In this document: one piece after another, positions 39 through 46,732 of the stretch
How the letters are laid out: every line of letters starts with the position of its first letter
How positions within the stretch are numbered: the stretch's first letter is position 1
Origin: Clostridia bacterium
GTDB lineage: Bacteria > Bacillota > Clostridia > UBA1212 > UBA1255
Length of the DNA: 46,933 nucleotides
Direction: 5' to 3'
Assembly (NCBI GenBank): GCA_016287565.1
Contig: JAEFAM010000011.1
Location: forward strand, 1 to 46,933
Program-made: the position numbers and the translations under genes
The notes under the pieces: model-generated
Told to the model about the DNA's origin: nothing
Databases searched by the model: none
The model's input: only the letters and a program-made list of their open reading frames with translations

Positions 39-73
39 TTCTAATGAGTTTTCTAATGAGTTTCTAATTAGTT
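39..73. repeat. Tandem 12-bp repeat, three copies
   Basis: The unit TTCTAATGAGTT occurs twice back to back (39-50 and 51-62). A third copy with one mismatch, TTCTAATTAGTT, overlaps it at 62-73. The repeat lies downstream of the glycerate kinase stop codon. No gene or clear terminator hairpin is visible in bases 1-109. Confidence 0.7.
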
Positions 74-109
74 GCGTATGTTTGCCTTTACGAGCGATCC
101 CGGAGTTTC

Positions 110-1255
110 TTATTTCTTACTATTACTGTTCAAAAGCCTGAACACCTGGTATGCGGTTTCCGTTAAATTGTGCGCTGCATATTCCGGGTCAAGAGCCTCC
201 TCAAGAGAGCAGATATTCCGCAGGATCGGGAAAAATGCATCGATCCCATAATCGTTACATAAGCTGGCGTCATCCGAAACACATCCGGAAAAGGCAATGA
301 CGCGTTTGCCGTATTTCTTTGCAAGGGAAGCGATTCCAACAGGCGCTTTTCCCATAACGGTTTGTCCGTCAAGGCGTCCCTCGCCGGTGACCACGATATC
401 CGCTTCCCGGATATACTCTTCTAAATTGGCCTCATTAATAACGAGCTGCACGCCGGATTCCAGTGTTGCGTTGGTAAAAGTCATGAATGCGAAGCCTGAT
501 CCTCCGGCAGCCCCCGCTCCGGGTGCGTCAGGATCTGCATTTGGATTTATTTTTGATGCAATGGCGGCATAGTTGGACAACCACTTGTCCATTTTGGGGA
601 CGTCTTCCGGCGAGGCTCCTTTTTGGAGACTGAATACTGCACTGCAGCCGTTCTCGCCGCACAATGGATTGCTCACGTCGCAGGCAATGCGAAACTGACA
701 ATTATGCAGCGCGGGCAATGCGTTTTTATTTGATATACTGTGCAGCTTTTGCAAACCTGCAGTTCCAAACGGGATGGATCGTCCTTCCTTGTCTGTAAAA
801 TCAAGCCCCAGTGCCTGCAGCATTCCAGCACCGCCGTCATTGGTGGCGCTTCCGCCAATGCCTATCAGAAAGCGGCGGCAACCGCGGCGAATTGCCTCCA
901 GAATCAGTTCACCAACTCCATAAGTAGTGGTGACCATAGGGTCTCGCTTTTCTGGAGGCACCAAGGTAATTCCTGCGGCTGATGCCATCTCGATCACAGC
1001 CGTAACTTTATCCGGCAAAATGCCGAATCGGGCTGTCACCGGCGCTCCCAACGGCCCGGTAACCTGTGTGACAACAATTTTCCCGCCTGACCCGGAGCAA
1101 AGTGCCTCCACGGTTCCTTCGCCTCCGTCTGCCAGAGGCAGCACGTGTACTGTTGCGTCAGGGTCAACTCTCAATATGGCTTTTCGCACAGCTTCGCCGG
1201 CCTGTACGGAAGACAGACTCCCCTTGAAGGAGTCAATCGCAACTGCTACCTTCAT
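110..1255 (-). CDS. Glycerate kinase
   Basis: This 381-residue protein is a type 1 glycerate kinase, which phosphorylates D-glycerate with ATP to feed lower glycolysis. Full family length and the conserved blocks support the call: IDSFKGSLSS near residues 7-16, LADGGEGT at 41-48, GIGGSATNDGGAGM at 132-145, and VVTGEGRLDGQT near 290. The start codon overlaps the stop of the upstream regulator gene in an ATGA, so translation is probably coupled and both genes share one mRNA. The context suggests that glycerate is an end product of the pathway controlled by the neighbouring regulator, but the source of the glycerate is not visible here. Whether the product is 2- or 3-phosphoglycerate cannot be read from the sequence. 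Confidence 0.93.
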   Translation of the reverse strand: MKVAVAIDSFKGSLSSVQAGEAVRKAILRVDPDATVHVLPLADGGEGTVEALCSGSGGKIVVTQVTGPLGAPVTARFGILPDKVTAVIEMASAAGITLVPPEKRDPMVTTTYGVGELILEAIRRGCRRFLIGIGGSATNDGGAGMLQALGLDFTDKEGRSIPFGTAGLQKLHSISNKNALPALHNCQFRIACDVSNPLCGENGCSAVFSLQKGASPEDVPKMDKWLSNYAAIASKINPNADPDAPGAGAAGGSGFAFMTFTNATLESGVQLVINEANLEEYIREADIVVTGEGRLDGQTVMGKAPVGIASLAKKYGKRVIAFSGCVSDDASLCNDYGIDAFFPILRNICSLEEALDPEYAAHNLTETAYQVFRLLNSNSKK

Positions 1256-2361
1256 TTCAATTCACCGTTTCTTAAAAAAGCAGATACGGTCTGTTCGACA
1301 TCTTCTTTTTTGATCAGCTGATAGGGAACGGTAACATGCGGAATGCTTTCCTTGGGATTATTGATTTGCCGTAAAAGCAGTTCGGCAGCTTTGTAGCCAA
1401 TCGTATATTCATCCTGCAGGATGTGCGTATAAAATGAGCCGTTTAATAATTCAAGCGCGCTGTTGGTCCCGCCGTCAAAACACACGATCTCAAAATTGCT
1501 CAGATCCTTGCCGCACATTTTTAAAGCGAGTTGAATCAGGTTGGCACATTCGTAGTTTTCGGCAACGGCAGCAGTTATTTCGTTATAAGTGGTAAACAGA
1601 TCTGTTAACATGGCAATGTTGTCATACAACTGATTGGTGTCAGAGGAGTTTAATTTTCTGCAAACATACTTTTCGTGATAAGCACGGTCTTCGCTGTGGG
1701 CAAATGCGTACATAAAGCCTTTGATTCGTTCTTCCAGTGCGGTGTTGGAAATGAATGAACCGATAAAAGCGATTTTACTGTGTCCTTTAGCAAACAGATA
1801 GTTCACCAGATCTTTAGAAGCATTGAAATTATCTGTGCATACATAGGTATAAGGCAAACCGGGAAGATAACGGTCGACCATAACAAGAGGCATATTTTGA
1901 AGGCTTTCAGAAGTAAAGGCGGAATTATACAATTCACCGTTCATAGGCATTATGATGATGCCCGAAATACCCAGCGAAAGCATATATTGCAGCTCTTCCG
2001 CTTCTTCAGATTGTGTCTTATAAGTACTGGATATAATAGGAATAAGATTGTTTTCTTTGCAGAAGGACTGGATCCCCTTAGAAATCTTCCTGCCGAAAAA
2101 TTCTGAACTGGTAGGCATTACAAGACCGATTTTTTTCTTTTCAGTTATAATTTGAGAATCTTTTACAAAACTTCCTTTTCCGGCCGTTCTGGTTATTTTG
2201 TTTTCGTTTACGAGCATATCCAATGCGTGTCGAACGGTGGTTATGCTTACGTTATACTTTTCAGCATACTCCTGTTCCGTGGGCAGCAGATCGCCCGGGG
2301 TCAGAATCTTATTGTCAATATCTCTTGAGATAGCCATATATATTTCGTGATATTTTGCCAT
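1252..2361 (-). CDS. GntR/LacI-type transcriptional regulator (AraR-like architecture)
   Basis: The protein (369 residues from the chosen start) has an N-terminal GntR winged helix over about residues 5-68, with the helix-turn-helix in YNVSITTVRHALDML and the wing ending in GKGSFV. A LacI/periplasmic-binding-type effector domain follows (about 75-360). This is the layout of B. subtilis AraR, so it probably binds a sugar ligand and represses. The ATG at 2361 has an AGG 6 bases upstream and gives the normal GntR N-terminus. The longer reading frame from 2463 is rejected because that ATG lies between the -35 and -10 of a perfect promoter. Likely targets are its own promoter and the divergent gene at 2781, where an array of AAACATT/AATGTTT half-sites occurs. 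Confidence 0.9.
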   Translation of the reverse strand: MAKYHEIYMAISRDIDNKILTPGDLLPTEQEYAEKYNVSITTVRHALDMLVNENKITRTAGKGSFVKDSQIITEKKKIGLVMPTSSEFFGRKISKGIQSFCKENNLIPIISSTYKTQSEEAEELQYMLSLGISGIIIMPMNGELYNSAFTSESLQNMPLVMVDRYLPGLPYTYVCTDNFNASKDLVNYLFAKGHSKIAFIGSFISNTALEERIKGFMYAFAHSEDRAYHEKYVCRKLNSSDTNQLYDNIAMLTDLFTTYNEITAAVAENYECANLIQLALKMCGKDLSNFEIVCFDGGTNSALELLNGSFYTHILQDEYTIGYKAAELLLRQINNPKESIPHVTVPYQLIKKEDVEQTVSAFLRNGELK

Positions 2362-2418
2362 AACAACCTCGCATAATAAAAAAATGATTTTGCCCGATTC
2401 CTCGGTATTTGAGTGCTT

Positions 2419-2430
2419 AAACATTTGTTT
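2419..2430. promoter_or_regulatory. Possible autoregulatory operator
   Basis: AAACATTTGTTT is an inverted repeat, AAACA-TT-TGTTT. It resembles the half-sites of the array at 2724-2764. It lies just downstream of the predicted regulator transcription start near 2443, a position that suits autorepression. Confidence 0.5.
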
Positions 2431-2449
2431 TATCAGCATCTCGGTTGTA

Positions 2450-2478
2450 ATTATAAACATCATCCTCCTTTATGTCAA
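2450..2478 (-). promoter_or_regulatory. Sigma-A promoter of the regulator-glycerate kinase operon
   Basis: Read on the minus strand, TTGACA (2478-2473) and TATAAT (2455-2450) are separated by exactly 17 bases, a perfect consensus. Transcription would start near 2443, giving a leader of about 80 nt before the ATG at 2361. The AAAGGAGG between the two boxes therefore cannot be a used ribosome binding site. Confidence 0.85.
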
Positions 2479-2619
2479 CAAATTGGCATATTATCTTATT
2501 ATTACTAACTTATTATCCTATTATTCCTATTTTTTAACCAATTTGAGATTTTCCAGGAGCCAAAAGATGCTTCTACGAGGAGAGACAGACCGGGCAAGGA
2601 ATAAGAAATGCAAAAATAA

Positions 2620-2635
2620 CAATATTACAATGTTT
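2620..2635. promoter_or_regulatory. Upstream auxiliary operator-like site
   Basis: CAATATTACAATGTTT matches the downstream 16-bp sites with few differences, and 2621-2635 is identical to 2732-2746. The two copies are 111 bp apart, so looping between upstream and downstream sites is possible. Confidence 0.45.
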
Positions 2636-2689
2636 AAATTTTCGCCAAAAATCAACCAAATTTATGTAAAAAAAGACGGTTTTGGGCTG

Positions 2690-2718
2690 TTGACATCACT
2701 ACGGCGGTTTGATATAAT
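2690..2718 (+). promoter_or_regulatory. Sigma-A promoter of the surface-protein gene
   Basis: TTGACA at 2690-2695 and TATAAT at 2713-2718 are separated by exactly 17 bases. A TG one base before the -10 makes it an extended -10 as well. The predicted start, near 2725, coincides with the beginning of the operator array. Confidence 0.88.
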
Positions 2719-2723
2719 AGAAT

Positions 2724-2764
2724 AAACATTAAATATTACAATGTTTTGAAACATTGCAATGTTT
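2724..2764. promoter_or_regulatory. Operator array of inverted AAACATT/AATGTTT half-sites
   Basis: Half-sites alternate in orientation: AAACATT (2724-2730), AATGTTT (2740-2746), AAACATT (2749-2755) and AATGTTT (2758-2764). The last two form a perfect 16-bp palindrome, AAACATTGCAATGTTT (2749-2764). A degenerate 16-bp copy occupies 2731-2746, so two similar sites start 18 bp apart. The array covers the predicted transcription start and ends just before the ribosome binding site, which is typical for repression. The divergent GntR/LacI-type regulator is the obvious candidate ligand. Confidence 0.75.
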
Positions 2765-2780
2765 ATGAAGGAGGATAATT

Positions 2781-4265
2781 ATGAAACGCAGCAAACTACT
2801 TGTTACCTTGTTAGCCATATTTGTTATATGTCTAACATTTAGTATTGCCCTGATCGCTTTCGCTGATGAAAGTGAAATCGGCGATGTTTTTTCAAACGGA
2901 AGAGTTACTCAGGAAGTAACCGAAAACAACGATTTAAAGATAACGCTAAAAACCGATACAGATTATAGCAGCACAAGAGCATACTATAAACAACCTATAA
3001 CATTAGATATGGCGAATAATAAGTGGTTCGAGATGAACTTTACAGTCGATGAATTTAATGTTGACGGAGGTTTAAGAATCAGTTTCCTGGCTTCTGCCGA
3101 GGATTTCCCCATGGACTCTTATGGCGATGGCTTTGGAGTATATTTTTGGGATGAAACAGCCTGGGGATATCCTGAATTACAGGCGTTTAGATGCGATTTC
3201 TATAAGTATAGCAGGACTGCCGGTTCTTCGGGTTTAATAGATGCTAAAGCTGTCAGAAGTGATGCATATAAAATCACGGGACAGTCTTTCCATCTCAAGG
3301 TATGGGAATATGACGCGGATAATATAGCAATCCAGGTAGATAGAGATGACAACGGAACCAATATTCAGGCCATAGGTGCTTTCGCCAAATCAAACCTTCC
3401 GGAAGGATTTGACATTAAGAATTGTACCTTAATGATCACGCCTGATATTGATATTAACAGAGCACATTCTTACGAAAAAGATATCGTTTTAACAATAAAA
3501 GATATTAACGGCAAGAAACCAGTAGATCAGGCAGAGCAGCCCGCCACCAGTATCATCAACGAGAGCGAGTACGATGTTTCCTACGTTCTTGACAGCAGCA
3601 ACGCCAAGACCTGGACCAACGGCAACATCGGCAACGCCAGCGTTAAGTACTTTTTCAAAGCCGAAGATGACGGCGTTAAAGTCGCAATTCGCGCGTTGGG
3701 CGTCAGCGCAGGTGAACTGATGCAGCTGAACTTCAACCCCGGCAACAAGCTCGCGGGTTCCACCGGACAATTCCTGTCCTTTGTCACTGGCGATTCCTTC
3801 AAACTGCTGCAGCACAACCACAAGAACGGTGTGCTTGACGATGCAAACCCCAACGGTGCCGACATTTCCGACAAAGTTGACGGCCAGATCGCAGCGATCG
3901 ACGGCGGTTACGAGATCGTTGCTAAACTGCCAAAGGCGCTGTTCACCATCACCGACGTTGACGGTGCTGACTCGTTCGTTTACGGCCAGGATGACATTTA
4001 CTTCGGTATGTTCATTGTTACCGGCGGACATGGCTACACCAACCAGTCTACCGCTCCTGGCACTGACTGGACTGTTGACGGTCTTGGCCTTACTGAGTAT
4101 GTTTTTAAAGGACAGAAGGCTCCCGAGACCCAGCCTGCCACTCAGCCCGATACTCAGCCTGAGACTCAGCCTCAGACTGGGGATGCCACGGTAGCAATGT
4201 TTGCAGTCATTGTAGTTCTCACTCTTGGAGCAGTTATTGTTTTCGCGAAAAAGAGGTCTTTTTGA
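2781..4265 (+). CDS. Secreted surface protein: N-terminal beta module, CBM9-like module, sortase-like tail
   Basis: The 494-residue product has a signal peptide (cleavage near AFA-DES, residue 28). Residues 30-235 form a module shared with the next gene, and residues 255-448 form a CBM9/DOMON-like module closely related to the N-terminal domain of the product of 45245. A short repeat of TQP units follows. The C-terminus has QPQTGD (463-468), then a hydrophobic stretch and KKRSF, which resembles a cell-wall sorting signal with Q in place of L. An AAGGAGG lies 6-8 bases before the ATG. The N-terminal half is AT-rich and the C-terminal half is clearly GC-richer, with the change near 3510-3540. 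No catalytic residues are recognised, so glycan binding is inferred. It is probably controlled by the operator array directly upstream. Confidence 0.82.
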   Translation: MKRSKLLVTLLAIFVICLTFSIALIAFADESEIGDVFSNGRVTQEVTENNDLKITLKTDTDYSSTRAYYKQPITLDMANNKWFEMNFTVDEFNVDGGLRISFLASAEDFPMDSYGDGFGVYFWDETAWGYPELQAFRCDFYKYSRTAGSSGLIDAKAVRSDAYKITGQSFHLKVWEYDADNIAIQVDRDDNGTNIQAIGAFAKSNLPEGFDIKNCTLMITPDIDINRAHSYEKDIVLTIKDINGKKPVDQAEQPATSIINESEYDVSYVLDSSNAKTWTNGNIGNASVKYFFKAEDDGVKVAIRALGVSAGELMQLNFNPGNKLAGSTGQFLSFVTGDSFKLLQHNHKNGVLDDANPNGADISDKVDGQIAAIDGGYEIVAKLPKALFTITDVDGADSFVYGQDDIYFGMFIVTGGHGYTNQSTAPGTDWTVDGLGLTEYVFKGQKAPETQPATQPDTQPETQPQTGDATVAMFAVIVVLTLGAVIVFAKKRSF

Positions 4266-4290
4266 TCTGCAACAATAAACAACAATGAAA

Positions 4291-4313
4291 TAGGGCGCCC
4301 GCGTGGCGCCCTA
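4291..4313 (+). terminator. Hairpin terminator after the first surface-protein gene
   Basis: TAGGGCGCC (4291-4299) pairs perfectly with GGCGCCCTA (4305-4313) around a 5-base loop. The following bases are AT-rich (ATTAATTGAATT) but not a pure T-run, so termination may be partial. Confidence 0.65.
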
Positions 4314-4355
4314 ATTAATTGAATTGATCACAAACCATGATATACCCTAAAAGGG

Positions 4356-4384
4356 TTCCAACAAATCGGCTTTTTCGGTATAAT
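4356..4384 (+). promoter_or_regulatory. Promoter of the second surface-protein gene
   Basis: TATAAT at 4379-4384 is a perfect -10. The best -35 at 17-bp spacing is TTCCAA (4356-4361), a weak match. No copy of the AAACATT/AATGTTT operator is seen here. Confidence 0.55.
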
Positions 4385-4413
4385 ATAGGCTGAAAAGTAT
4401 GGAGGAGATTATT

Positions 4414-6093
4414 ATGAAACGCAGAAAACTTCTTGTTCCATTGTTAGCTATATTAGTTGCATGTCTAACATTATGTAACATCAGAATCGCTTTCGCTGAA
4501 GAGAGCGAATATACTTTTGATGAAGATTCACATTTCGTTCCCGGTAAGTGGGATGCTCAAAAGGGCAGGGTCAACACTACTGTAAATTCATCCGGCGAAG
4601 AAATGATATTTATGGTAAAAGACAGACAGCCACAGCAATCAAGAGCTTATTCTGAACCTATTGATATTACAATAGATACAAAAATCTCATTCCAAATTAT
4701 AGATATGGGAATTGGCGGCGGTTTTAGTTTAAGCTTTATGGCTACAGATGATGACTATCCATTAAGCGGATATGGCGATGGGTTAAGAATCCTTTTTAAA
4801 GATACTCAAACCGCATTGGTTGCTGATACAACTGTACATTCAAGAGCAGGTGATGCTGCAACTATTGGCAATGGCGAATACACAATTGTTGACGGCACCG
4901 ATTATCTTACACATACTTATTCTGTCAGAATATCGGACTATAATGATACGGCTTCAACAGTTAAAGTTTACCTCGATAAAGACGGAACAAATGTTGACTC
5001 TTTCACCGTTAACTTTGATGATCTGTCATCGTCATTTAACCCCGAAGCTTGTTTTCTGCTTTTAACTCCTGAAATCGACCAAAGTGTAGAATCTTCTTGG
5101 GAAAAGCCGTTAAAGGTTTTAATATCTGAATATTTGATCAACGGCGACTCGGGAGACACGGTTCCGACTGAAGCGCCCACGACGGTTCCGACTGAAGCAC
5201 CCACGATGACTCCTGAAGAGGTAATCACCGACATCAGCTACGGAGACAAACAAGTGCAGATCAAGCTGGTAGAGAATTTTAATGATTCCGTTGTCAGTCC
5301 GTGGGACTACGGCATATGCGAGATCATAGACGGTGATGTAATTCTGAGCGAGGAGTATGCTGCGAGCTGCGTTGACCGCTACGGCATTACCGCGCCGATG
5401 CTTAAAGCCGCGGGGAAACTTACCGGGGCGAAGTATGTTGTCCTCTCATTGACCAACAAGAGCGACGGAGAAGTCTGGTTCTGTTTCCAGCCGGATACGC
5501 CTGGCTACGAACATGCCTACATGGGCGGTGAGATGGATTTGGAACTGTATCTGGTCGAGCTTGACGGCACGGTCAGCGTAATCGATGAGCCCGCCGCAGA
5601 GACCTCGCAAAATAACGGCCGCTACGGCTACGGCATACCTGAGGGCTTCGACGGCTACCTGTTCATGCCGTCATCGATCTTCTGCGACCACGGAGATTGG
5701 TCCACACCGATCTTCACTAACGACGACCCGGTTTTCACGGCAGTAGGCTTCGATGTGAACGGCGATGAACCGTCTTTCTTCTTAGTGACTGTCCACGATA
5801 TGTATATATGCACGCAGGAGTTGCCGGAGATAGCTCCGAAATCGACAGAGGCCCCAACTGAGGCTCCCACCGAAGTACCTACAGAAGTTCCCACGGCGGA
5901 ACCTACCGAAGCACCTACGGACGCACCGGTCGTTACCGAGGAGCCGAAGACAACAGATGATTCCAAATCAGAGGAGCCTGCTCCCAAGAAAAACAACGGC
6001 TGGCTGATTCCCGTGATCATCGGCGGCGTGGTTGTTGTGGCGGCAATTATAGTTGCAGTCGCTGCTGCATCAAAGAAAAAGAAGAAAGCATAA
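4414..6093 (+). CDS. Membrane-anchored surface protein: N-terminal beta module plus GFxGY-type module
   Basis: The ATG at 4414 is preceded by GGAGGAG at good spacing. An in-frame ATG at 4399 is part of that ribosome binding site and is rejected. The 559-residue product has a signal peptide (IAFA-EES, near residue 27) and an N-terminal module homologous to that of the product of 2781 (both contain GYGDG or SYGDG). A PTEAPT linker follows, then a second module (about 275-475) that is nearly the same as the C-terminal module of the product of 16947, with PEGFDGYLFMP and VGFDVNGDEPS. Another PTE-rich linker leads to a membrane segment ending in KKKKKA. The first module is coded by AT-rich DNA and the second by GC-richer DNA, with the switch near 5150-5230. 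A carbohydrate-binding or scaffold role is inferred. Confidence 0.82.
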   Translation: MKRRKLLVPLLAILVACLTLCNIRIAFAEESEYTFDEDSHFVPGKWDAQKGRVNTTVNSSGEEMIFMVKDRQPQQSRAYSEPIDITIDTKISFQIIDMGIGGGFSLSFMATDDDYPLSGYGDGLRILFKDTQTALVADTTVHSRAGDAATIGNGEYTIVDGTDYLTHTYSVRISDYNDTASTVKVYLDKDGTNVDSFTVNFDDLSSSFNPEACFLLLTPEIDQSVESSWEKPLKVLISEYLINGDSGDTVPTEAPTTVPTEAPTMTPEEVITDISYGDKQVQIKLVENFNDSVVSPWDYGICEIIDGDVILSEEYAASCVDRYGITAPMLKAAGKLTGAKYVVLSLTNKSDGEVWFCFQPDTPGYEHAYMGGEMDLELYLVELDGTVSVIDEPAAETSQNNGRYGYGIPEGFDGYLFMPSSIFCDHGDWSTPIFTNDDPVFTAVGFDVNGDEPSFFLVTVHDMYICTQELPEIAPKSTEAPTEAPTEVPTEVPTAEPTEAPTDAPVVTEEPKTTDDSKSEEPAPKKNNGWLIPVIIGGVVVVAAIIVAVAAASKKKKKA

Positions 6094-6114
6094 ATAATAG
6101 GACAGAACCGCAAA

Positions 6115-6144
6115 GGTCGCGATCTTTAAAAACGGATCGCGGCC
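6115..6144 (+). terminator. Hairpin after the second surface-protein gene
   Basis: GGTCGCGATC (6115-6124) and GATCGCGGCC (6135-6144) form a 10-bp stem with one G-T pair and a 10-base loop. No T-run follows, so this may be an attenuator or a 3'-end stabiliser rather than a strong terminator. Confidence 0.45.
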
Positions 6145-6212
6145 ATTGCTCTATATCATGGCTTCATGTTGCATTTAGACACTCTGCTGTAATTGTGTAG
6201 GAGGGACCCGGT

Positions 6213-9200
6213 ATGAAGAGATTGGCGAAAGAAAGATGCGTGGAACGAAACAAAACAGGCAGGAGATTGTCTGCTCTGGCGGTGTGCGCGTTGATGATGC
6301 TCACTGCGTTCGGTTGCAAGACGGCTGACAACATCCCGGGGGACATAACCGCACCTCCTACAGAGAGCACGCAGCCTGTTACAGAGAAACTGGAAGTTAT
6401 GGATCTGTATGAAGACGGCTACAATAACAACATGATCGTCGGCTTTGACGAATACGGCCGCACAGTGCCTGCAGCGGCAGGCAAAAAAGATAAGCGTGAC
6501 GTTGGAATTTTCTATTTTCTTTGGTTGGGTCAGCCCCAATCCAGTGACATTTACGACGTCTCGAAGATAATCGCGGAGCAGGGCCAGGACATCGTATTCC
6601 ATGAAGAAGGCGGCAAAATCAGCCCTAACGGTCAGGCTCACTGGTGGGCGGAACCGCTCTACGGCTACTACAACAGCGTTGACAAATGGGTCATCCGGAA
6701 GCACTTGGAAATGCTTACCGAAGCCGGCGTGGACTTTCTGATCTTCGACACCACTAACTGTTTGCTGTACAGTGAAGTGGCTAAGAAAATAATGAAAATG
6801 AGCCAGGAACTCAGGGACGAAGGCTGGGATGCACCGCAGGTGTGTTTTTATACACATTCCCGTTCCATTGACACCATCAAGCAAATTTACAACACTTACT
6901 ACAAGAAAGGCAACTATCCGGATTCCTGGTATAGAATTGACGGCCGTCCTATGATCATCGGCTACACTTCGGCTGAAAAGGACATTCTCGAGGCGGAGAG
7001 CCGCGGCGAAACTACCTACAAGCCATCCGATCTGTCGCAGGAACTTCAGGACTTCTTCTACGTAAAAGAAGCGTGCTGGCCAAACGACGAACACAACGAC
7101 AACTCCTTCCCGTACACCGAATGGGTCTACCCGCAGCCGCTCAACGGCAATACGATGAACGTGTCCGTTGCCACCCATCCGATGGTGCCCTTCAGCTTTT
7201 CATTGACCCATGAGAACTGGTGCAACTGGGGGCGCGGCTACGACATCAACACCGGCGAAAACAAGCACGAAGACATCTACCGCGGCACGTTCTTCCAATC
7301 CGAATGGGAGACCGTGTTTGCCTCCGACCCGCAGCCCGAGATCCTGATGGTCACCGGCTGGAACGAATGGATCGCATATAAGCAGCCCTACGGCGGCGAG
7401 TACATGCTCTGCGACAACGTGGATATGGAATACTCCCGCGACATCGAACCCATGCAAGGTGGCTACGAAGACGCGTATTTCATCCAGATGATCACGAACA
7501 TCCGCAAGTACAAGTACAACGATTCCGACGGCGTGATTGCTGACAATGTATACAAAACTATTGACCTTAACGGCAGCGATGCTCAGTGGGATGAGGTGAA
7601 GGCAGTCTACCGCCATGTGGGCACGGTCAACGACAAACGCGATGCGTACGGCGCCGCAAAGACAGTACACTATTCTTTGCCTGCAGCGGACAACAACATT
7701 CTTTCGGTCAAACTGACCAACGACGCGGAGAACCTGTATTTCCGTATTGAATGTGCGGATCCGGTGAAAGTGACTGACAATGCCAATTGGATGAACCTGT
7801 TCATCGGCACCGGCACGCCGGCGCAAAAAGGCTGGGAGTCTTATGAATACGTGATCGGCCGGAGCCGCGACGCCGCGTCGGGCACTGCCGCCATTGAGCA
7901 GTTAAGCGCTGATTTCACCGGTAAACCCGCGGGCGATGCCACATACGCCGTGAACGACAAAACTGTGATCTACAGCGTGCCAATGGCCGCGATAGGCATT
8001 GATACCAACAGCGTAGCCTCGGCGCTCCGCATCTATTTCAAGGTGGCGGACGGCGTCGATGGCGCGGAAGAGATCATGAACTACTACGTTTCCGGGCGCT
8101 GCCTTCCCATGGGCCGCCTGAGCTACGAGTACAAATTCGTACTGCCTTCAGGGCAATCCGGCAGCAACACAGGAACAGATCCCGTATCAACTAATACCGC
8201 AGAAGTAATCAACACGGCAACGGCTACAGAAAGACCTACTCCGACACCAACGCCTTCGCCGAAACCCACAACGGTACCGGATCCTTCCACGGTCACGCTG
8301 ACGATCGAAGACTTTAACGCGATTTCAGATCCGATCAAAGAACTCCGTCCGTTAGATCTCAGCGGTTTCGGAATCACACATCCGGAGTTCTCTTTTGAGG
8401 AGGAGTACGCCCAGGAAGGGCTTGCGTTGGTCAACACACTTTCTGCGTCCACCTGGTGCCAGGCGTTTGAACTCACGGGCAAGCGGCTGAATGTATTTAA
8501 AGAAGCACAGCCGGAGTACTACCTGCGGATCTGGGTCGTTACACCTGATATCACCAGCGTAGGTCTTTCTTTCTGCCTCGGCACGGGCGGCGGAAGTAAG
8601 CGGAGCTACATCGACGCCTCAAAAGCGATCGTCACAGATGTGAGCGGCGAAGTCATAGAATGCGACACGGGCAACGACACATCAGACGCCGGAGACGATT
8701 CCTCTATCCGTATCCCTGATGGTTTTGAAGGATATGTAGCGTTGCCTCTCAGCGAACTGATACCATGGAACAATTACGAAGGCATCACTGATCTTGCCAA
8801 AGTAAATTACCTGAAGATCGACGCGCGGCCCTCGGTTGCTTGTGACGGTGATCGGTACATACTCGACGCGTTGTGCCTTTCTGACAGCCCCGTGGGAGAA
8901 CTCCGACCGGGCGGTTCCGGCTCGCACGGCGACCAGCCAGATCAGCAGACCTTTGCCACCAAAAATGAGGAGCTCGACTATATGTTTTCCGAATTGTTGA
9001 ACAAAGAAGCCACGTTCCAGTACTGTCCCGAATACGACCCCGCAGGCTATCCGAATGTGAAGGCGATCTGGCTCGACGGTGTCAGCTTCGGCGGCAAGGC
9101 TACTAAGGTATTCGCGTACATCGGTTTCCCCGAAGGCGCGAGCGCGGACAATAAAGTGCCCGCCATCGTGCTGCAGCATGGCGGCGGCGGATACGCGTAT

Positions 9201-10193
9201 CCCAATTGGGTAAAACTTTGGAACGACCGTGGCTACGCGGCCATTGCAGTGGGCAACACGGGCTACTATCCTGCCGCCCAAGGCATCACCGATTTTTACG
9301 GTGCCGCATCCTGGACCCGGAGCGTACCGAAAAACGTATTGTCCTCCGACCCGCGCATAATGCCCCCGGACAACGATGGAATGAATTCATCCACAGGTAG
9401 TGTAGACCGCATGTGGATGTACCACGCCGTAGCGCAGACGATCCTGGCAGACAGCCTGCTGCGGGCGGATCCGCGCGTTGACGCCGAAAATGTCGGATTG
9501 ACCGGCATCTCCTGGGGCGGCGTGATCACGTCTATAGCCATTGGCTACGACTCGCGCTTCGCGTTCGCGATTCCGGTTTACGGCAGCGGCTACCTGAACG
9601 AAGCGCACTCCTGGATGAAGAACAATTTCAATTCTGCCGGCACGCGCGAACTCTGGGAGCCTTCGCTGAAACTGAAAGATGTCAAAACAAAGGTGCTCTG
9701 GTTGTGCTGGGCCAACGATAACTGCTTCTCAATCAACTCCAACAGCAAGTCCTGTCTGGACGTGCAGGGCAGTGTGCTTTCTGTGATCCAGAACTGGAGC
9801 CACGGGCATATAGAAGGCTGGAGCCGGCCGGAGATAAACCGTTTCGCTGACTGGGCCGTCAAGGGCGGCGAGCCCCTTGCAACGTTCAAAACGCTGCCGG
9901 GCGAAGGCCGCGACATTTCGTTCCAGATAACACTGCCTGCCGATGCCGCGGAAGTAAATGCGCGGGTGTGCTACATTGACGCCCCGCTAAGCTACTCGCC
10001 GAACGGCCGCCTGCATCTTAGCGGTCAGGACACCATCGATCAGGAGTGGCACTATGCCAAGTGCGAGATTAATGGCGACACCGTCTCCGTGCACCTGCCC
10101 GATGACGCGGTCAATTACTATATCGAACTGTCCGTACGCTGCAGAGCAACGAGCTATATCACGGCATCACCGCTGATCAGTCTGGTCGATTAA
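6213..10193 (+). CDS. Multimodular lipoprotein: GH99/WbsX-like barrel, CBM9-like, GFxGY-like module, carbohydrate esterase
   Basis: This 1326-residue lipoprotein (lipobox ending at Cys35) starts after AGGAGGG. Residues about 70-440 resemble GH99-like/WbsX barrels, with EPLYGYYN, YRIDGRP and GWNEW (382-386, Glu385 a candidate catalytic residue). Residues 445-650 are CBM9-like. A Thr/Pro linker follows, then a module (690-905) with IPDGFEGYV that distantly resembles the GFxGY modules of the products of 4414 and 16947. The C-terminus (930-1326) is an alpha/beta hydrolase of the acetyl-xylan-esterase type: GISWGG with Ser1100, a probable acid in WANDN (Asp1169), and a histidine at 1197 or 1199. 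The barrel and CBM9 parts are shared with the product of 41051, which lacks the esterase. The protein probably removes acyl groups and cleaves an alpha-linked glycan at the cell surface; the substrate is unknown. Confidence 0.8.
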   Translation: MKRLAKERCVERNKTGRRLSALAVCALMMLTAFGCKTADNIPGDITAPPTESTQPVTEKLEVMDLYEDGYNNNMIVGFDEYGRTVPAAAGKKDKRDVGIFYFLWLGQPQSSDIYDVSKIIAEQGQDIVFHEEGGKISPNGQAHWWAEPLYGYYNSVDKWVIRKHLEMLTEAGVDFLIFDTTNCLLYSEVAKKIMKMSQELRDEGWDAPQVCFYTHSRSIDTIKQIYNTYYKKGNYPDSWYRIDGRPMIIGYTSAEKDILEAESRGETTYKPSDLSQELQDFFYVKEACWPNDEHNDNSFPYTEWVYPQPLNGNTMNVSVATHPMVPFSFSLTHENWCNWGRGYDINTGENKHEDIYRGTFFQSEWETVFASDPQPEILMVTGWNEWIAYKQPYGGEYMLCDNVDMEYSRDIEPMQGGYEDAYFIQMITNIRKYKYNDSDGVIADNVYKTIDLNGSDAQWDEVKAVYRHVGTVNDKRDAYGAAKTVHYSLPAADNNILSVKLTNDAENLYFRIECADPVKVTDNANWMNLFIGTGTPAQKGWESYEYVIGRSRDAASGTAAIEQLSADFTGKPAGDATYAVNDKTVIYSVPMAAIGIDTNSVASALRIYFKVADGVDGAEEIMNYYVSGRCLPMGRLSYEYKFVLPSGQSGSNTGTDPVSTNTAEVINTATATERPTPTPTPSPKPTTVPDPSTVTLTIEDFNAISDPIKELRPLDLSGFGITHPEFSFEEEYAQEGLALVNTLSASTWCQAFELTGKRLNVFKEAQPEYYLRIWVVTPDITSVGLSFCLGTGGGSKRSYIDASKAIVTDVSGEVIECDTGNDTSDAGDDSSIRIPDGFEGYVALPLSELIPWNNYEGITDLAKVNYLKIDARPSVACDGDRYILDALCLSDSPVGELRPGGSGSHGDQPDQQTFATKNEELDYMFSELLNKEATFQYCPEYDPAGYPNVKAIWLDGVSFGGKATKVFAYIGFPEGASADNKVPAIVLQHGGGGYAYPNWVKLWNDRGYAAIAVGNTGYYPAAQGITDFYGAASWTRSVPKNVLSSDPRIMPPDNDGMNSSTGSVDRMWMYHAVAQTILADSLLRADPRVDAENVGLTGISWGGVITSIAIGYDSRFAFAIPVYGSGYLNEAHSWMKNNFNSAGTRELWEPSLKLKDVKTKVLWLCWANDNCFSINSNSKSCLDVQGSVLSVIQNWSHGHIEGWSRPEINRFADWAVKGGEPLATFKTLPGEGRDISFQITLPADAAEVNARVCYIDAPLSYSPNGRLHLSGQDTIDQEWHYAKCEINGDTVSVHLPDDAVNYYIELSVRCRATSYITASPLISLVD

Positions 10194-10252
10194 AACAGAA
10201 ATGTTCATAAAAAAGAAGGTTAAAACCTCCGCCTCTGCATTGGAGAATAGCG

Positions 10253-12814
10253 ATGAATAAAATCACTGGAATATACTTGAATTACAGCCCTTTGAAAAAG
10301 ACCGAGCGATACCGTATTACGGAAAGCCTTCCGGTGTTTTCATGGGCTGTAAAAGCTGATTACAAGTCCGGTTTTCAAAAGGCGTTCGTATTGAAAATCA
10401 AAAACGGCAAGGAAACTGTTTTTGATTCCGGCGTGATCGAATCCGCTAAACAGGAATATAAATTAAAGAACGTCGATCTGCCGTGCGATTGCAAACTGTA
10501 TGTAGAAATATCTGTTTTAGATAACCGGGACGAATGGGGCACTTCAAGAGAAGAATATTTTTATGTTGCCGGCACCGATTTCAAGTCTTTGCGCTGGATC
10601 GCCCCTGAGGCTGCCGAAAAAGAAAAGGCGATATATTTCAGAAAGAAGTTTACGGTCAATAAAAAAATAAGCCTCGCGGTGCTGTATGCCTGCGGCTTAG
10701 GTTATCATAAGCTGTACATCAATGGCGTGGCGGTCAGCAATACAGTTCTTGACCCATTATTTTCCGATTACTCCAAAGACTGCTATTACGTTATGGAACC
10801 GGAGGTTGCCGATAAGATCACCGAAGGGGAAAACTGTATAGGGATCGTGATCGGCGAGGGCTGGAGAAGAAACGGCATAGTCTTTCCAGCGAAAAGCTCC
10901 GGACCGGATCAAATAAAGAAATTTGCGGGAGTTCCGCAGCTTTCGGCGCTGCTCAAGATCTATTACGAAGACGGAACCGTTGACAGGATAGAGACGGATC
11001 CTTCCTGGAAATGGAGCTACGGCGCGATCGTTAAGAACAATATTTTTAACGGCGAAACGTACGACGCCAACTATGCTTTGAATGATTGGAACCGCATCGA
11101 ATGTGATGAAAATACTTTTGAAAACGTAAGTATTGTTCAAAGTCCCGGCGGCGTTCCCCGGGTCATGACAGCCGAACCGGTCATTGAGCAGGAAATATAT
11201 AGACCGGTCACTGCAAATCAGGTGGATGAGAATACGTATGTTGTTGACTTCGGTCAAAATATAGCAGGGGTCACCAGGATCAAGCTTCCTGAAAAGCTGA
11301 AAAAAGGGCAACGGATATCAATTACCCATTCCGAATTTATTAACGAAGACGGATTGCTGTATATGGCTACATATCGTAATGCGGCCAGCACAGATGTTTA
11401 TACTGCATCCGGGGATGAAAGAGACTTAAAAGTCTGGCAGCCGCTCTTTACTTATCACGGTTTCAGATATGCCCAGATCACCGGGTTACCAATGCTTGAA
11501 AAGGATGATATTGTCGCAGTTAGTGTGTATTCGGATATTCAGTCAGAAAGCAAGTTTTCCTGCGGAAACGGTCTTGTCAACAGTATTCATAAACTGGTTA
11601 TTCAAACGGAAAAATCCAATATTCACGGATTGTTTACCGATTGTCCGCAAAGAGATGAGCGCATGGGCTGGATGAACGACGCCACAGTGCGCTTTGAGGA
11701 AACGCCCTATAATTTTGAAATCGGCAGACTGATGCCTAAAATCATTCAAGACGTTATGGATACCCAGGATGAAAACGGCGCTATCACCTGTACGGCGCCT
11801 TATTTGTGGGGAAACAGACCGGCCGATCCGGTATGCGCTTCACCGATCGTAGCCGGACTTCAGTGCTATCTCCATACGGGCAATCTTGAAATATTGCAGC
11901 GTGCGTATGATATGTATGCCGGATGGGTGAAATGTCTCGGAGATCATTCTGAAAACTATCTTGTTAATTATTCTTATTACGGCGACTGGGCAGGCCCCGG
12001 ATATGCCTGTCTCGGCGGTGATGAAGGTGCCGAGTCAATAGTAACGCCCGGTCTGTTTATGTCCAGCGGGTATTACTATTTTGACGCAATGACAATGTCG
12101 AGATTCGCAAAGTTGCTCGGCAAAACAGAGGACGAAATAAAGTACCGCGAGCTCGCGGAACGAATAAAAGCAGCCATTTTGGACAAATGGTGGGACGATA
12201 ATACGGGTAAAATGTGCACCGGTTCTCAGGGGAGTCAAAGCTTTGCGTTATGGCTTGGTATTATTCCGGAGAACAAGAGAAAACTGGCGGCTGCACAGCT
12301 GAGAGATGATCTCATTAAGTTTGATTACCGTATAACGACCGGCAATCTTAACACCCGTTATATGATGGACATGCTCGCCGAATATGGATATATTGACGAT
12401 GCATGGGAGCTTATTACAAGAGAGGAATATCCTTCTTTTGGATATATGCTCCAGCTGGAAGCAACGACTGTCTGGGAAAGGTTTGAATTCAAAAAGACGT
12501 CGTCGATGAATTCCCATAATCATCCGATGTACGGCGCTATAGGGTATTGGTTCTATGCATATATCTGCGGGATCAAACCCACTTCGGCGGCGTATGATAC
12601 GGTTGATATCAAGCCGTATTTCCCCAAAAAACTATTAAGCGCAAACGCTTCATTGCAGACAATAAAAGGGGAGTTGTCAGTCAGATGGGTAAAACGTTTC
12701 GGTAAAACGTATCTGTACGTAAATATTCCTTTCGGTGTCAATGCCAATTTGTATTTTGGGGATATTTGTGAGAAGATAGGCAGCGGTTTCCACGTTTTTG
12801 AAAAGGAATGCTGA
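10253..12814 (+). CDS. GH78 family alpha-L-rhamnosidase
   Basis: The 853-residue protein has the GH78 layout: N-terminal beta-sandwich domains, a central rhamnosidase domain with DFGQNIAG, then an alpha/alpha barrel beginning near the acid-rich motif DCPQRDERMGW (463-473). The conserved Asp476 follows, and TTVWERF lies further on in the barrel. It removes terminal alpha-L-rhamnose from glycans or glycosides. There is no signal peptide, so it acts in the cytoplasm on imported oligosaccharides. GGAG lies 8 bases before the ATG. The alpha-mannosidase gene starts 16 bases after the stop, indicating an operon. Family assignment is secure; the exact linkage is not. Confidence 0.9.
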   Translation: MNKITGIYLNYSPLKKTERYRITESLPVFSWAVKADYKSGFQKAFVLKIKNGKETVFDSGVIESAKQEYKLKNVDLPCDCKLYVEISVLDNRDEWGTSREEYFYVAGTDFKSLRWIAPEAAEKEKAIYFRKKFTVNKKISLAVLYACGLGYHKLYINGVAVSNTVLDPLFSDYSKDCYYVMEPEVADKITEGENCIGIVIGEGWRRNGIVFPAKSSGPDQIKKFAGVPQLSALLKIYYEDGTVDRIETDPSWKWSYGAIVKNNIFNGETYDANYALNDWNRIECDENTFENVSIVQSPGGVPRVMTAEPVIEQEIYRPVTANQVDENTYVVDFGQNIAGVTRIKLPEKLKKGQRISITHSEFINEDGLLYMATYRNAASTDVYTASGDERDLKVWQPLFTYHGFRYAQITGLPMLEKDDIVAVSVYSDIQSESKFSCGNGLVNSIHKLVIQTEKSNIHGLFTDCPQRDERMGWMNDATVRFEETPYNFEIGRLMPKIIQDVMDTQDENGAITCTAPYLWGNRPADPVCASPIVAGLQCYLHTGNLEILQRAYDMYAGWVKCLGDHSENYLVNYSYYGDWAGPGYACLGGDEGAESIVTPGLFMSSGYYYFDAMTMSRFAKLLGKTEDEIKYRELAERIKAAILDKWWDDNTGKMCTGSQGSQSFALWLGIIPENKRKLAAAQLRDDLIKFDYRITTGNLNTRYMMDMLAEYGYIDDAWELITREEYPSFGYMLQLEATTVWERFEFKKTSSMNSHNHPMYGAIGYWFYAYICGIKPTSAAYDTVDIKPYFPKKLLSANASLQTIKGELSVRWVKRFGKTYLYVNIPFGVNANLYFGDICEKIGSGFHVFEKEC

Positions 12815-12830
12815 GCGAGGAGTTTATAAT

Positions 12831-15311
12831 ATGAACAGACTGCATTTAATATGTAATGCGCATATTGACCCGGTGTGGCAATGGAAATGGGACGAAGGAT
12901 TGGCAACGGTTCTTTCTACGTTCAGAGTTGCAGCGGAGTTCTGCGAGGAATTTGACAATTTCGTTTTTAATCACAACGAAGCCATGCTGTATAAGTGGAT
13001 AGAAGAGTACGATCCGCCCTTGTTCAAACGCATTCAAAAGCTCGTTCAGGCAGGCAAATGGCAAATAATGGGTGGATGGTATCTGCAGCCGGATTGTAAT
13101 ATGCCCTGCGGTGAATCCATAGTTCGTCAAATTATATACGGACAGCAATTTTTCAGAGAAAAATTCGGAGTCAGCCCCAACGCGGCAGTCAACGTTGACT
13201 CTTTCGGCCATTCCAGAGGCCTTGTACAGATCTTGGCCAAATGCGGGTATGATGCATATTTATATTTAAGGCCGACGCCGGATACGGGGATCCCTGAAGG
13301 AATTGACGGGCAGAATTTCCTTTGGGTCGGTTATGACGGCAGCAAAATACTAACGCATCATTTTGACTGGGGATACAATACGCTGCTCGGCACTGCGGGC
13401 AAAGCCGTTGAACAGTATGTCAACTCACATACCGAGGATAAAGCGTATCTTATGTGCTGGGGTGTCGGGAACCACGGAGGCGGACCTTCCAGAAGAGACA
13501 TTATTGCGATCAACGAACTGATAGAGCATGTTTCCGATAAGAGCACGGTCATGCATTCTACGCCGGAACAATACGTCAGCGAGGTTGAAAAGTCTGATCT
13601 TCCTTTATGGTATGGAGATTTAAATCCCGTAAACGTCGGAAGTATTACGTCAATGCATTCGATCAAGGCGCTTCATAGAAAACTTGAAGGCAGGCTGGCG
13701 GTTTCGGAAAAGCTTTCAGCGCTTTGCGAAAAAAACGGTTTGATGGCTTATCCGGGCGAAAAGATCCATGAAGCGTATGAAGATCTTATGTTCTCGGAAT
13801 TTCACGATTCTTTGCCGGGGACAATGATCCGCAGCGCGGAAAAAGATACGGTCCAAAAACTGGATCACGGGTTGGAGATATGCGAAAAAATAATAACTAA
13901 GGCATTTTTCGCGCTCAGTGCAGACCAGCCTCGGGCAACCGGCACGGATATCCCGATCATCATTGTCAATCCGCATCCTTATGAGATCACGGATGATTTC
14001 GAGTGTGAATATATGCTTCAAAATCAAAACTGGGACAATAACTTTACGGTTGCCACAGTGTATGACGGGGACAAACCGCTTCCTTCGCAGATGGAAAAAG
14101 AGGGCAGCAATATGCCCCTTGACTGGCGCAAGAAGATCTCGTTCCACGGCACGCTGAAACCGATGTGCGCAAATCGTTTTGATTGCAAACTGCGAATCGT
14201 TGACGACGATCCCCGTACCGTTAAAGCCGTATCGCAGTTTGAACCGTTTGTTTTTGAAAATGATCATATGAAGGTCGTCCTGGATACTTCTACGGGCAGT
14301 ATCTCCGAATACGTTGTAAACGGGCAGAATTATGCTGCTCCCGGCCTGGGCGAACTGCTTGTTTATGAAGATTGTCCGAATCCGTGGCGGCTTAGAGAAA
14401 CGCTTTATCACGGCAAACTTTTAGGAAAGTTTAAACTGCTGAACAGAAGAGAAGCTGCCGTTTTTGCGGGGACAAATGAAGATGAGATCAGTCCGGTAAA
14501 TGTCATCGATTCGGGCGAAGTACGCACTATGGTCGAAGTTTTATTGGGCTACAATACTTCTAGAGCGCGGTTGGTGTACGTTTTTTCAAATCATTCAAAA
14601 GAGTTTGATATTAAACTTACACTATATTGGAACGAGAAAGACACCCTTTTAAAACTGAATGTTCCAAATTCTTTTGACGAGCCTCAGTACGTAGGCGAAG
14701 ATATGTTCGGGGTGAAACCGTTAAAAAAAGATTATGAGCAGGTTGCCCACAAATGGGTCATGGCTTGTGAAAACGACCGGGCATTGGCGGTGGTCAACCA
14801 AACCTGTTACGGCATGGATACGGATAAGGGCGGAGTCCGGTTAAGCCTTTTACGTTCCCCAGCATATTCCTGCCACGATATCGGCGACAGAATACTGATG
14901 GAAGATCCCTGTTTCCACCACCGGATGGATCAAAATGAGAGCGAGTTCAGATTCAGGGTGCTGGCAGGAAACAAAGAAAGTGTTTTGATCGAAACCGATA
15001 AGGCTGCGCAATACATCAACGAGACGCCCGTGGCAATTTCTTATTTCCCCGGGGGTGAAGGGAAGAACGATCTCAAAAGCTTCGAAATCAGGAACGTCCG
15101 TCTCGATGCGTTTAAGAAAGCAGAGGACGGAAACGGTTACGTTATGCATTTATTTAATACACTTGATAAGCCGGTTCGGGCTGAAATCAAGCTGGATGCT
15201 TTTAACGTCAAAACAGAGCTCTATTTCGGCAATTATGAATTGAAAGCGTATCGGGTTAATGATAATATGCTGCAAGAGATCACGTTGATCGATGAAATAA
15301 AACAGGTCTGA
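12831..15311 (+). CDS. GH38 family alpha-mannosidase
   Basis: The product (826 residues) begins at the ATG at 12831, which has GAGGAG 8 bases upstream and gives the canonical GH38 N-terminus. The upstream in-frame ATG at 12798 lies inside the rhamnosidase gene and is rejected. The zinc-binding HID is at residues 11-13 (AHIDPVW), and the nucleophile is Asp123 in NVDSFGHS. The C-terminal beta domains of the family are present. It trims alpha-mannose residues from oligosaccharides and, lacking a signal peptide, is cytoplasmic. It is co-transcribed with the GH78 gene upstream and the ROK-SIS gene 21 bases downstream. The combination of mannosidase and rhamnosidase suggests a mixed glycan substrate. 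Confidence 0.92.
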   Translation: MNRLHLICNAHIDPVWQWKWDEGLATVLSTFRVAAEFCEEFDNFVFNHNEAMLYKWIEEYDPPLFKRIQKLVQAGKWQIMGGWYLQPDCNMPCGESIVRQIIYGQQFFREKFGVSPNAAVNVDSFGHSRGLVQILAKCGYDAYLYLRPTPDTGIPEGIDGQNFLWVGYDGSKILTHHFDWGYNTLLGTAGKAVEQYVNSHTEDKAYLMCWGVGNHGGGPSRRDIIAINELIEHVSDKSTVMHSTPEQYVSEVEKSDLPLWYGDLNPVNVGSITSMHSIKALHRKLEGRLAVSEKLSALCEKNGLMAYPGEKIHEAYEDLMFSEFHDSLPGTMIRSAEKDTVQKLDHGLEICEKIITKAFFALSADQPRATGTDIPIIIVNPHPYEITDDFECEYMLQNQNWDNNFTVATVYDGDKPLPSQMEKEGSNMPLDWRKKISFHGTLKPMCANRFDCKLRIVDDDPRTVKAVSQFEPFVFENDHMKVVLDTSTGSISEYVVNGQNYAAPGLGELLVYEDCPNPWRLRETLYHGKLLGKFKLLNRREAAVFAGTNEDEISPVNVIDSGEVRTMVEVLLGYNTSRARLVYVFSNHSKEFDIKLTLYWNEKDTLLKLNVPNSFDEPQYVGEDMFGVKPLKKDYEQVAHKWVMACENDRALAVVNQTCYGMDTDKGGVRLSLLRSPAYSCHDIGDRILMEDPCFHHRMDQNESEFRFRVLAGNKESVLIETDKAAQYINETPVAISYFPGGEGKNDLKSFEIRNVRLDAFKKAEDGNGYVMHLFNTLDKPVRAEIKLDAFNVKTELYFGNYELKAYRVNDNMLQEITLIDEIKQV

Positions 15312-15332
15312 AAGACGGAATAGGTTTGTGAT

Positions 15333-16895: not shown

Positions 16896-16946
16896 CCGGG
16901 AAGCGAAGGACGAAACGAAAACGGGGTATGGCGCGGAGATGTTGAA

Positions 16947-45244: not shown

Positions 45245-46732
45245 ATGAAAAAAGTATTTGCGATCATTGTCGCCGCTATCATGGTGATCTCGCTTTTCCC
45301 GCTGGTGGGAAGCGCAGCGAGCTCGAATCCCGCAGTAGACGGCGTTATTTCTGAAGGCGAGTATGCCGCAACGTTCGAGATGAAGCCCGACAACGTCCAG
45401 ACCTGGACCGGCGGCACTCTCGACACCAACATCACCTACTACATAAACGCCGAGAGAGACGCGCTGCTGTTCCAGGTGCTGTTCGTAGGTATCGTGACCC
45501 CGAAGGCCGGATTCCACGAAGGCGACACTTACCAGCTGGCGTTCAACCCGGGCAATATTGCCGACGACCAGGCGCCCCTGTTCATCTCCTTCGTAGTAAG
45601 GAACCATCAGCTTACGATCCTCCAGCACAACTGGGAGACCGCGCTCCTTGACGATGCCAATCCTGCCGGAGCGGACATCACCGAACTGGTCCCCGAGGCG
45701 ATCCTGGATGACGAAGGCGACAACATCATTATCGAAGTCAGGATCCCGCAGGCTTTCTTCACCATCGGATCCGATTACGAAGAGGGCACCGGCTATAAAT
45801 TCAGCGAGACTATGAAACTGGGCCTGTTCGCCGTCATCGCCGGACAGGGCTACACCACGCTTCCTACCGCTCCCACCACCTGGACCGTTTCCGCTCTGGG
45901 CATCAACGACAATGAAGTCAAGATCATGAAAGACGTTGAGCAAGGCGGCGAAGGCACCGTGGTCCAGGGCGTGGAGATACTGGACTTCTACGATGCGGAA
46001 GGACGCAACATGAGCTTCGATACCTTCTTCGTCAACAGAGTTCAGCTGGACAACATCATCATGGAAAATTCTGACGGCGGCGCCAGCGGAAAACTGGAAG
46101 CCTACGGCAGAGAGATCGACGGCAGGGAAGACACCTACGAGAACTTCACGTTCCGCGGCTGGGCAGGCTTTAACGCTCCTATGATCGGAGCAGGATACCA
46201 GATCGACGAAGAAGATCCCGTTCTTCTCGACAGCCCGTTCAAGGCTACCGAAGCGGCCGTACAGGGCGCAGGCGGCGAGTACGCTTCCCGTCTCGAAATC
46301 GAAGTGGACGTTACCGGCCTTCAGGACGGCAGGCTTCACGAGATCAGAGCGGTCGTACAGCTCCAGGATGAAGACGGAGAGATCTATTATTCCTACCTGA
46401 ATATGGATGAAGCCAACAACAACATGCAGTTCTACTACCAGGCTCCCGGCGATCCGCCTCCGCCGACCGCTACTCCCGAGCCCACTGCCACTCCCGAGCC
46501 TACCGAGGCTCCTGTAGTTACGGATGCTCCCGTAGTTACCGAGGCTCCCAAGACGACTGAAGAGAACCATGGCGAAGAGGCCACTGCGGCTCCTGCCACC
46601 CAGCCTAAAGATGATACCAAGGACGCTACGAAAGGCGGACTTCCCACCGGAGCCATCATCGGAATCGTCGTAGGCGTCGTTGTCGTTGCGGCAATCGTCG
46701 CGGGCATCCTGATCGCCAAGAAGAAGAAATAA
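45245..46732 (+). CDS. Membrane-anchored CBM9-like surface protein
   Basis: The 495-residue product has a signal peptide (cleavage near SAA-SS, about residue 25). A CBM9/DOMON-like module spans about 30-230, and a second beta domain about 235-405. A Thr/Pro/Glu linker (410-460) leads to a transmembrane helix ending in KKKK. The first module closely resembles residues 255-448 of the product of 2781; both carry LLDDANPAGADI or LDDANPNGADI and an LAFNPGN or LNFNPGN motif. A perfect AAGGAGG lies 5 bases before the ATG. It likely binds carbohydrate at the cell surface; no catalytic residues are recognised. Confidence 0.83.
   Translation: MKKVFAIIVAAIMVISLFPLVGSAASSNPAVDGVISEGEYAATFEMKPDNVQTWTGGTLDTNITYYINAERDALLFQVLFVGIVTPKAGFHEGDTYQLAFNPGNIADDQAPLFISFVVRNHQLTILQHNWETALLDDANPAGADITELVPEAILDDEGDNIIIEVRIPQAFFTIGSDYEEGTGYKFSETMKLGLFAVIAGQGYTTLPTAPTTWTVSALGINDNEVKIMKDVEQGGEGTVVQGVEILDFYDAEGRNMSFDTFFVNRVQLDNIIMENSDGGASGKLEAYGREIDGREDTYENFTFRGWAGFNAPMIGAGYQIDEEDPVLLDSPFKATEAAVQGAGGEYASRLEIEVDVTGLQDGRLHEIRAVVQLQDEDGEIYYSYLNMDEANNNMQFYYQAPGDPPPPTATPEPTATPEPTEAPVVTDAPVVTEAPKTTEENHGEEATAAPATQPKDDTKDATKGGLPTGAIIGIVVGVVVVAAIVAGILIAKKKK

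Follow-up and report, generated by a model that had tools for sequence, protein, structure and literature searches.

A stretch of 46,933 nucleotides from an uncultured rumen bacterium of the class Clostridia (GenBank contig JAEFAM010000011.1; hereafter the window, whose coordinates are used throughout) carries near its left end two adjacent genes for surface proteins, 2781 and 4414. An earlier note on this DNA had described the two as domain-shuffled chimeras, and this proposal has been followed up in the window and in related genomes. The window is the complete contig G000:C67 of the 2.65-Mb metagenome-assembled genome (MAG) G000, of which G002 is a sister species; all genomes compared are MAGs, and the members of the genus are 70-96% complete.

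Architecture of genes 2781 and 4414

Gene 2781 (2781..4265, + strand, as are all features below unless stated) encodes a protein of 494 amino acids. It consists of a signal peptide, an N-terminal module N1 (2859..3530; residues 27-250), a C-terminal module C1 (3531..4106; residues 251-442), and a linker with a TG-type anchor (4107..4265) that resembles a sorting signal, with PQTGD, a hydrophobic stretch and a KKRSF tail. Gene 4414 (4414..6093) encodes a signal peptide, module N2 (4492..5151), a PT-rich linker, module C2 (5230..5820), a further linker and a transmembrane KKKKKA anchor. Position 4414 is the likely start of this gene; an ATG in the same frame at 4399 overlaps with the ribosome-binding site. 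Against the TIGR01167 LPXTG profile the tail of the 2781 product scores 15.7 bits (cut-off 15.9), and that of a paralogue on contig G002:C81 scores 19.4; the genome has a single sortase match (PF04203, 50.9 bits, on G000:C71).

The two proteins share their N-terminal module and differ in their C-terminal one, as had been claimed, with the qualification that the shared modules are distant relatives: residues 27-250 of the 2781 product and 27-246 of the 4414 product are 29% identical (BLAST E about 1e-21 over residues 1-246), and C1 and C2 are mutually unrelated. C2 recurs with its anchor behind a different N-part in gene 16947 (18165..18956), and positions 5230-5867 and 18165-18799 align with 80.9% DNA identity over 639 bp, in agreement with the earlier note. 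The counterpart that the note had named for C1, a distant C1-like module in gene 45245 (45344..45904, immediately 3' of the signal peptide codons), is related at the protein level (35% identity over 190 amino acids, E 2e-28). This match had been overstated, since no DNA match between the two was found at E 1e-3, and closer relatives of C1 occur on G002:C81 (89.3% DNA identity), on G000:C78 and in further genomes.

Composition breaks at the module junctions

The GC content at third codon positions (GC3) is 0.36 in N1 and 0.67 in C1, and 0.31 in N2 and 0.66 in the following linker plus C2. When the best single GC3 change-point was located in each gene and compared with 1000 permutations, it fell at 3528 in gene 2781 and at 5134 in gene 4414, and none of the permutations reached either value. 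The control genes 16947 and 45245 showed no change-point (84 and 73 of the 1000 permutations, respectively). Both positions coincide with module junctions (3531 and 5151), and the junction at 3531 is also the homology break of gene 2781 that was located independently of composition. The shift that the note describes from AT-rich to GC-richer DNA where the modules meet is thus present in both genes, and neither is uniform in composition. AT-richness is local in this part of the window: GC3 of the adjoining regulator gene is also low (0.44), and the listed genes from 15.3 kb onwards have values of 0.58-0.76.

N1 and N2 are rare. N-modules of this kind were found in two of 31 genomes of the order, in these same two when 391 genomes of the class were searched, and at two loci among the genome contigs; the only carriers of N1 were two members of the genus and a distant MAG. 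No match was obtained for N2 in plasmids, for N1 in phages or for the 2781/4414 pair in viral contigs, nor was there a near match for the left 19.5 kb of the window among plasmids or phages. Composition and rarity suggest that the AT-rich N1 and N2 are probably imported, foreign modules.

C1 occurs behind unrelated N-parts

The comparison of gene 2781 with its relative on G002:C81 delimits C1 sharply. DNA identity is about 35% before 3531 and mostly 80-97% after it, it drops near 4106, beyond which the anchor reaches only some 73%; from its abrupt start at 3531 the homologous stretch is 89.3% identical over 609 bp. The G002:C81 N-part has no similarity to N1 and shares 60% amino acid identity with that of G000:C78. 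This contig piece lacks a syntenic place in G000, and its flanks match at 67-71% only. Synonymous divergence (dS) between the two C1 modules is 0.42 and nonsynonymous divergence (dN) 0.027. In G000:C78 itself, a 170-bp patch of C1 (L061:6535-6703) is 92% identical to a G006 gene, the remainder being about 74% identical.

The fetched loci held 40 distinct C1-bearing rows, of which 33 were used after one fragment and six distant rows (25-34%) had been dropped. An N-part was available for 27 of the 33, and these fell into six clusters by single linkage. Near-identical C1 modules with sharp junctions are carried by otherwise unrelated proteins. Relatives do show alternative module combinations, so that a single architecture conserved in all of them, which would have spoken against exchange, is not what was observed.

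Homogenised C1 pairs within genomes

Four genomes contain a pair of C1 modules that are nearly identical in DNA although their N-parts are dissimilar: G001 (97.4% over 623 bp), G004 (94.1% over 723 bp), G006 (96.6% over 326 bp) and G000 (95.5% over 268 bp). Within these pairs dS is 0.12, 0.11, 0.20 and 0.17, respectively, whereas all other C1 comparisons except 2781/G002:C81 gave 0.66 to 1.2 (G001 against G004 0.66, most others above 1). One such pair was present in each of the four congeneric genomes found to have at least two TG-anchored C1 genes; a single such gene is present in each of G002 and G003, and G005 gave anchor-level or partial matches only. In sliding identity plots the homology of the pairs begins abruptly, in all cases no more than about 50 nt from where the module starts; that of the G004 pair ends 7 nt past the stop codon.

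A C1 tree of the 33 rows, in which 18 of 30 inner branches were well supported, pairs these rows by genome. Approximately unbiased (AU) tests rejected the grouping of C1 by N-type, both for type B (G004, G006 and G003; p-AU 2.6e-99) and for type A (G002, G000 and G004; p-AU 2.7e-5), and also rejected a tree in which the C1 modules of the pair L060/L078 were held together (p-AU 1.4e-46). The module thus has a phylogeny at odds with that of the remainder of the protein.

These data bear on the view that the two genes are old domain fusions inherited vertically, with C-modules kept alike by strong purifying selection. C1 does align across the order with many conserved positions, and the low dN between 2781 and G002:C81 would fit. 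Selection on the protein, however, leaves synonymous differences in place, and these are few within genomes compared with the values of at least 0.66 between species; C1 groups by genome and not by N-type, and the N-parts of the within-genome pairs are not equally little diverged. In addition, two contigs end in 40-mers that recur without mismatch within the contig they are paired with, which is what an assembler running into a repeat would produce. We therefore regard vertical descent under purifying selection as improbable.

That contigs break within repeats, together with the incompleteness of the genus MAGs, could also suggest that the mosaics are artefacts of assembly or binning, with contigs joined chimerically at repeated modules. 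The paired modules are 94-97% and not 100% identical, and hence distinct sequences, the sharp GC3 breaks lie inside open frames, and another assembly contains 2781 and 4414 in the same arrangement (99.87% identity over 6367 bp, see below). An artefact of this kind is accordingly improbable as well.

The junctions recur at the same module edge, which might be expected if a dedicated device (a site-specific recombinase, a retroelement or a phase-variation system) swapped the modules. The exact edges nevertheless spread across some 50 nt, which is not the pattern of a fixed recombination site, and Pfam recognised no recombinase, transposase or reverse transcriptase among 25 distinct open reading frames scanned, a search that covered the window only. 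We give such a device very little credence.

Shared leaders and their fusion in the sister species

At the starts of genes 2781 and 4414 lie copies of a leader repeat comprising the ribosome-binding site and signal-peptide codons (copy 1, 2764..2876; copy 2, 4398..4509). The copies are 79.6% identical over 113 bp, far above the likeness of N1 and N2. Upstream of copy 1, and divergent from 2781, lies a gene on the - strand (1255..2463) for a GntR-type regulator with a periplasmic-binding-protein-like effector domain. Between the two genes are three operator-like copies of AAACATTNNAATGTTT (2620-2635, 2731-2746 and 2749-2764), which are palindromic (inverted repeats). At up to two mismatches the window has only these three matches, none outside 2620-2764, and none of 100 shuffles reached three.

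The syntenic locus in G002 (contig G002:C28) matches the window at 66-2876 (95.4%), 4398-6163 (96.1%) and 8142-18955 (92.6%). There gene 2781 is missing, and the body of 4414 follows directly on the promoter and first codons that belong to 2781; the terminator-like inverted repeat between the two genes (4283..4321) is not in G002. Over the 26 bases that precede its ATG, the fused leader is 2781-like at 10 of 11 informative sites; from +11 to +41 three of six are 2781-like and three 4414-like, and all later listed sites are 4414-like. A single crossover between +35 and +41, plus private changes of the 2781 leader at -24, +11 and +24, would explain this pattern. As a consequence of the fusion a 2781-type promoter, with the operator-like repeat stretch in common, would drive the 4414 body in G002. 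In this comparison of two genomes, deletion of 2781 in G002 would be the simpler direction.

A second module-sized difference lies downstream. The stretch 6163..8142, missing from the G002 copy, codes for the N-terminal domain of the protein of gene 6213 (a protein of 1326 amino acids, against 732 in G002), so that in G002 a lipoprotein signal peptide is fused directly to the linker.

A recently exchanged block and a possible copy in a distant lineage

The sequence shared with G002 forms a block (66..18955; 92-97% DNA identity) with sharp ends, the left at 66 and the right at the stop codon of gene 16947. Core genes of G000 and G002 are 87-88% identical, and lower at the RapZ locus. Their dS values are 0.64 for IleRS, 0.58 and 0.57 for a transketolase-like and a lipoamide-dehydrogenase-like gene (names read from the sequence), 0.93 for another gene and 1.4 for a fast RluD-like gene. 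In contrast, seven genes or modules compared in the block gave dS of 0.12-0.25. Being far less diverged than most of these core genes, this glycan-utilisation block of 18.9 kb has been exchanged recently between the two species, and for the same reason it was rejected as a baseline for species divergence.

The first 6367 positions of the window recur at 99.87% identity in locus L104 from MAG Tb.RUG.388 (G406). The possibility that this MAG represents the same species as G000 was rejected, since its core proteins and composition indicate a distant lineage: its NusA-like and TruB-like proteins are 47% and 34% identical to those of the genus (751 kb, about 28% of G406, was examined), and no match to the transketolase-like operon was found in it. 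A tetranucleotide classifier whose training excluded the window (44 and 266 fragments of 2.5 kb; balanced accuracy 0.94-1.0 in cross-validation) assigned the first 5 kb of the contig concerned, G406:C90 (L149-L150), to the genus and everything from 7.5 kb onwards to G406. The other 20 kb of this contig has the composition of the distant Bacillota MAG, with the junction near window position 66; the window itself starts 65 bp beyond the G002 edge, within sequence common to G406:C90. Either the block has jumped recently to a distant lineage or G406:C90 is a chimera.

Proposed recombination through leaders and cassettes

Taken together, recombination has moved modules between surface proteins, as the earlier note had suspected: C1 stands behind an unrelated N-module in G002:C81, four genomes contain homogenised pairs, and gene 2781 is absent from the G002 locus. 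We consider it very likely that 2781 and 4414 are real mosaics and that lectin-like N-modules are shuffled by ordinary homologous recombination or gene conversion, for which shared leaders and C-terminal cassettes provide the homology. AT-rich, lectin-like N1 and N2, behind similar leaders, would have been joined to native cassettes, namely C1 with the TG-type anchor and C2 with the transmembrane anchor. The shared leaders on the 5' side and the shared cassettes on the 3' side would act as homology arms, and the N-module between them could be added, dropped or exchanged without loss of secretion or anchoring. The enzymology would presumably be of the RecA type, and the direction of each event is likewise deduced.

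Several observations weigh against this interpretation. G000 has three TG-anchored C1 genes, of which only one of the three possible pairs is homogenised, and 2781 is not in it; with a dS of 0.42, the C1 swap involving 2781 and G002:C81 was hardly very recent. G002 has 4414 with an unchanged N2-C2 architecture (97%), which makes this fusion older than the exchange between G000 and G002. A match in G006 extends 67 residues into N1, so that some N-parts classed as unrelated may be very remote relatives. The N-types used in the AU tests were named only after inspection of the C1 tree. Finally, several contigs stop within the shared module, which leaves some pairs partly visible, and one bin could contain two strains.

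A broader extension is more doubtful, and we put it forward tentatively. The surface of the genus might be a repertoire of constant C-parts and variable N-parts, in which conversion-homogenised cassettes and leaders serve as arms for continual exchange of N-modules within and between species, with pieces travelling on mobile glycan-utilisation blocks and reaching a distant Bacillota lineage. As to the suggestion of a diversification mechanism, the mobility of the modules is borne out and an adaptive role would be a matter of inference.

Module shuffling in surface proteins has long been known, for example in protein PAB of Finegoldia magna (de Chateau and Bjorck 1994; mentioned in PMC2628433). 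The present case resembles PAB in being an anchored surface protein of a Gram-positive anaerobe, a mosaic with a module moved between otherwise unrelated surface proteins. It differs in what moves or is converted, here a C-terminal cassette that stays near-identical within each genome as the N-modules vary. The module shuffled in PAB is reportedly the GA-module, and its organisms and modules are not known to be related to those described here, where binding is putative. A within-genome homogenised C-cassette behind differing N-modules is thus a variant of a known theme, on which nothing was found in the literature searched. Its value is that module exchange in uncultured rumen bacteria has been caught while junctions, composition scars and synonymous clocks are still legible. 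If leaders and cassettes do act as arms, gut Firmicutes would have a simple, machinery-free route to rearrange which glycans they grip, and the breaking of metagenome assemblies at surface genes would have a reason.

Predicted fold and function

The structure model of N1 has a predicted local distance difference test (pLDDT) score of 63 and is nearest to L-type lectins and lectin-like adhesins (VIA Z 10.8-11.8 over 169-189 residues), in keeping with a predicted L-type-lectin/ConA-like fold; the matches cover mostly residues 13-219 of the 2781 product and little of C1. The predicted fold resembles those of an Entamoeba legume-lectin-like protein (5zbt), YwfG (7yl4) and the A-domain of Staphylococcus SasG (8tb2). 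Sequence identity to these is about 10% and Pfam gave no lectin match for N1; sugar binding is putative. Toxin receptor-binding domains, the top Foldseek hits of the first structure model, were rejected as a meaningless, generic jelly-roll resemblance (TM score 0.24, root-mean-square deviation 20 over both modules).

For C1, no relative of solved structure was found by sequence. One of 12 members matched PF06452 of the CBM9/DOMON-like carbohydrate-binding domains weakly (E 0.031), which falls short of the cut-off and is not significant. The C2 model (pLDDT 46 overall) was too poor for use. The window also encodes GH78, GH38, GH127, GH5 and GH2 enzymes. Together with the lectin-like N1 model and the weak CBM9 match, these suggest that binding of glycans at the cell surface, putatively of plant or host origin, is the likely role of the proteins, next to a glycan-utilisation locus.

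Other cassettes and repeats

Stand-alone C2 occurs in short anchored proteins of G002 (contig G002:C85), G023, G021 and G019, and fused C2 in 4414 (G000 and G002) and 16947, which suggests that the C2 fusions are derived. A second cassette, D plus anchor, is present on three G000 contigs (92-93% over about 500 bp) and, behind another N-part, on G002:C88 (88.5%).

G003 and G002 share a surface gene at the RapZ locus with 99% identity (L119:5122-6303 and L116:6306-7487), and the average over the 6.4 kb in which it lies is 85%; at sequence level this amounts to the exchange of an entire gene at a fixed locus. In G001, dispersed tandem intergenic repeats (unit about 70 bp, 88-97% alike) lie at contig ends and, for the most part, 5' of surface genes (L082:3244-3483, L083:2672-2889, L114:76-309 and 5682-5830, L123:1-98). 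Within the window, a gene with InlB-B-repeat-like domains contains an internal tandem duplication at 34503-35760 (71.6% identity over 616 bp).

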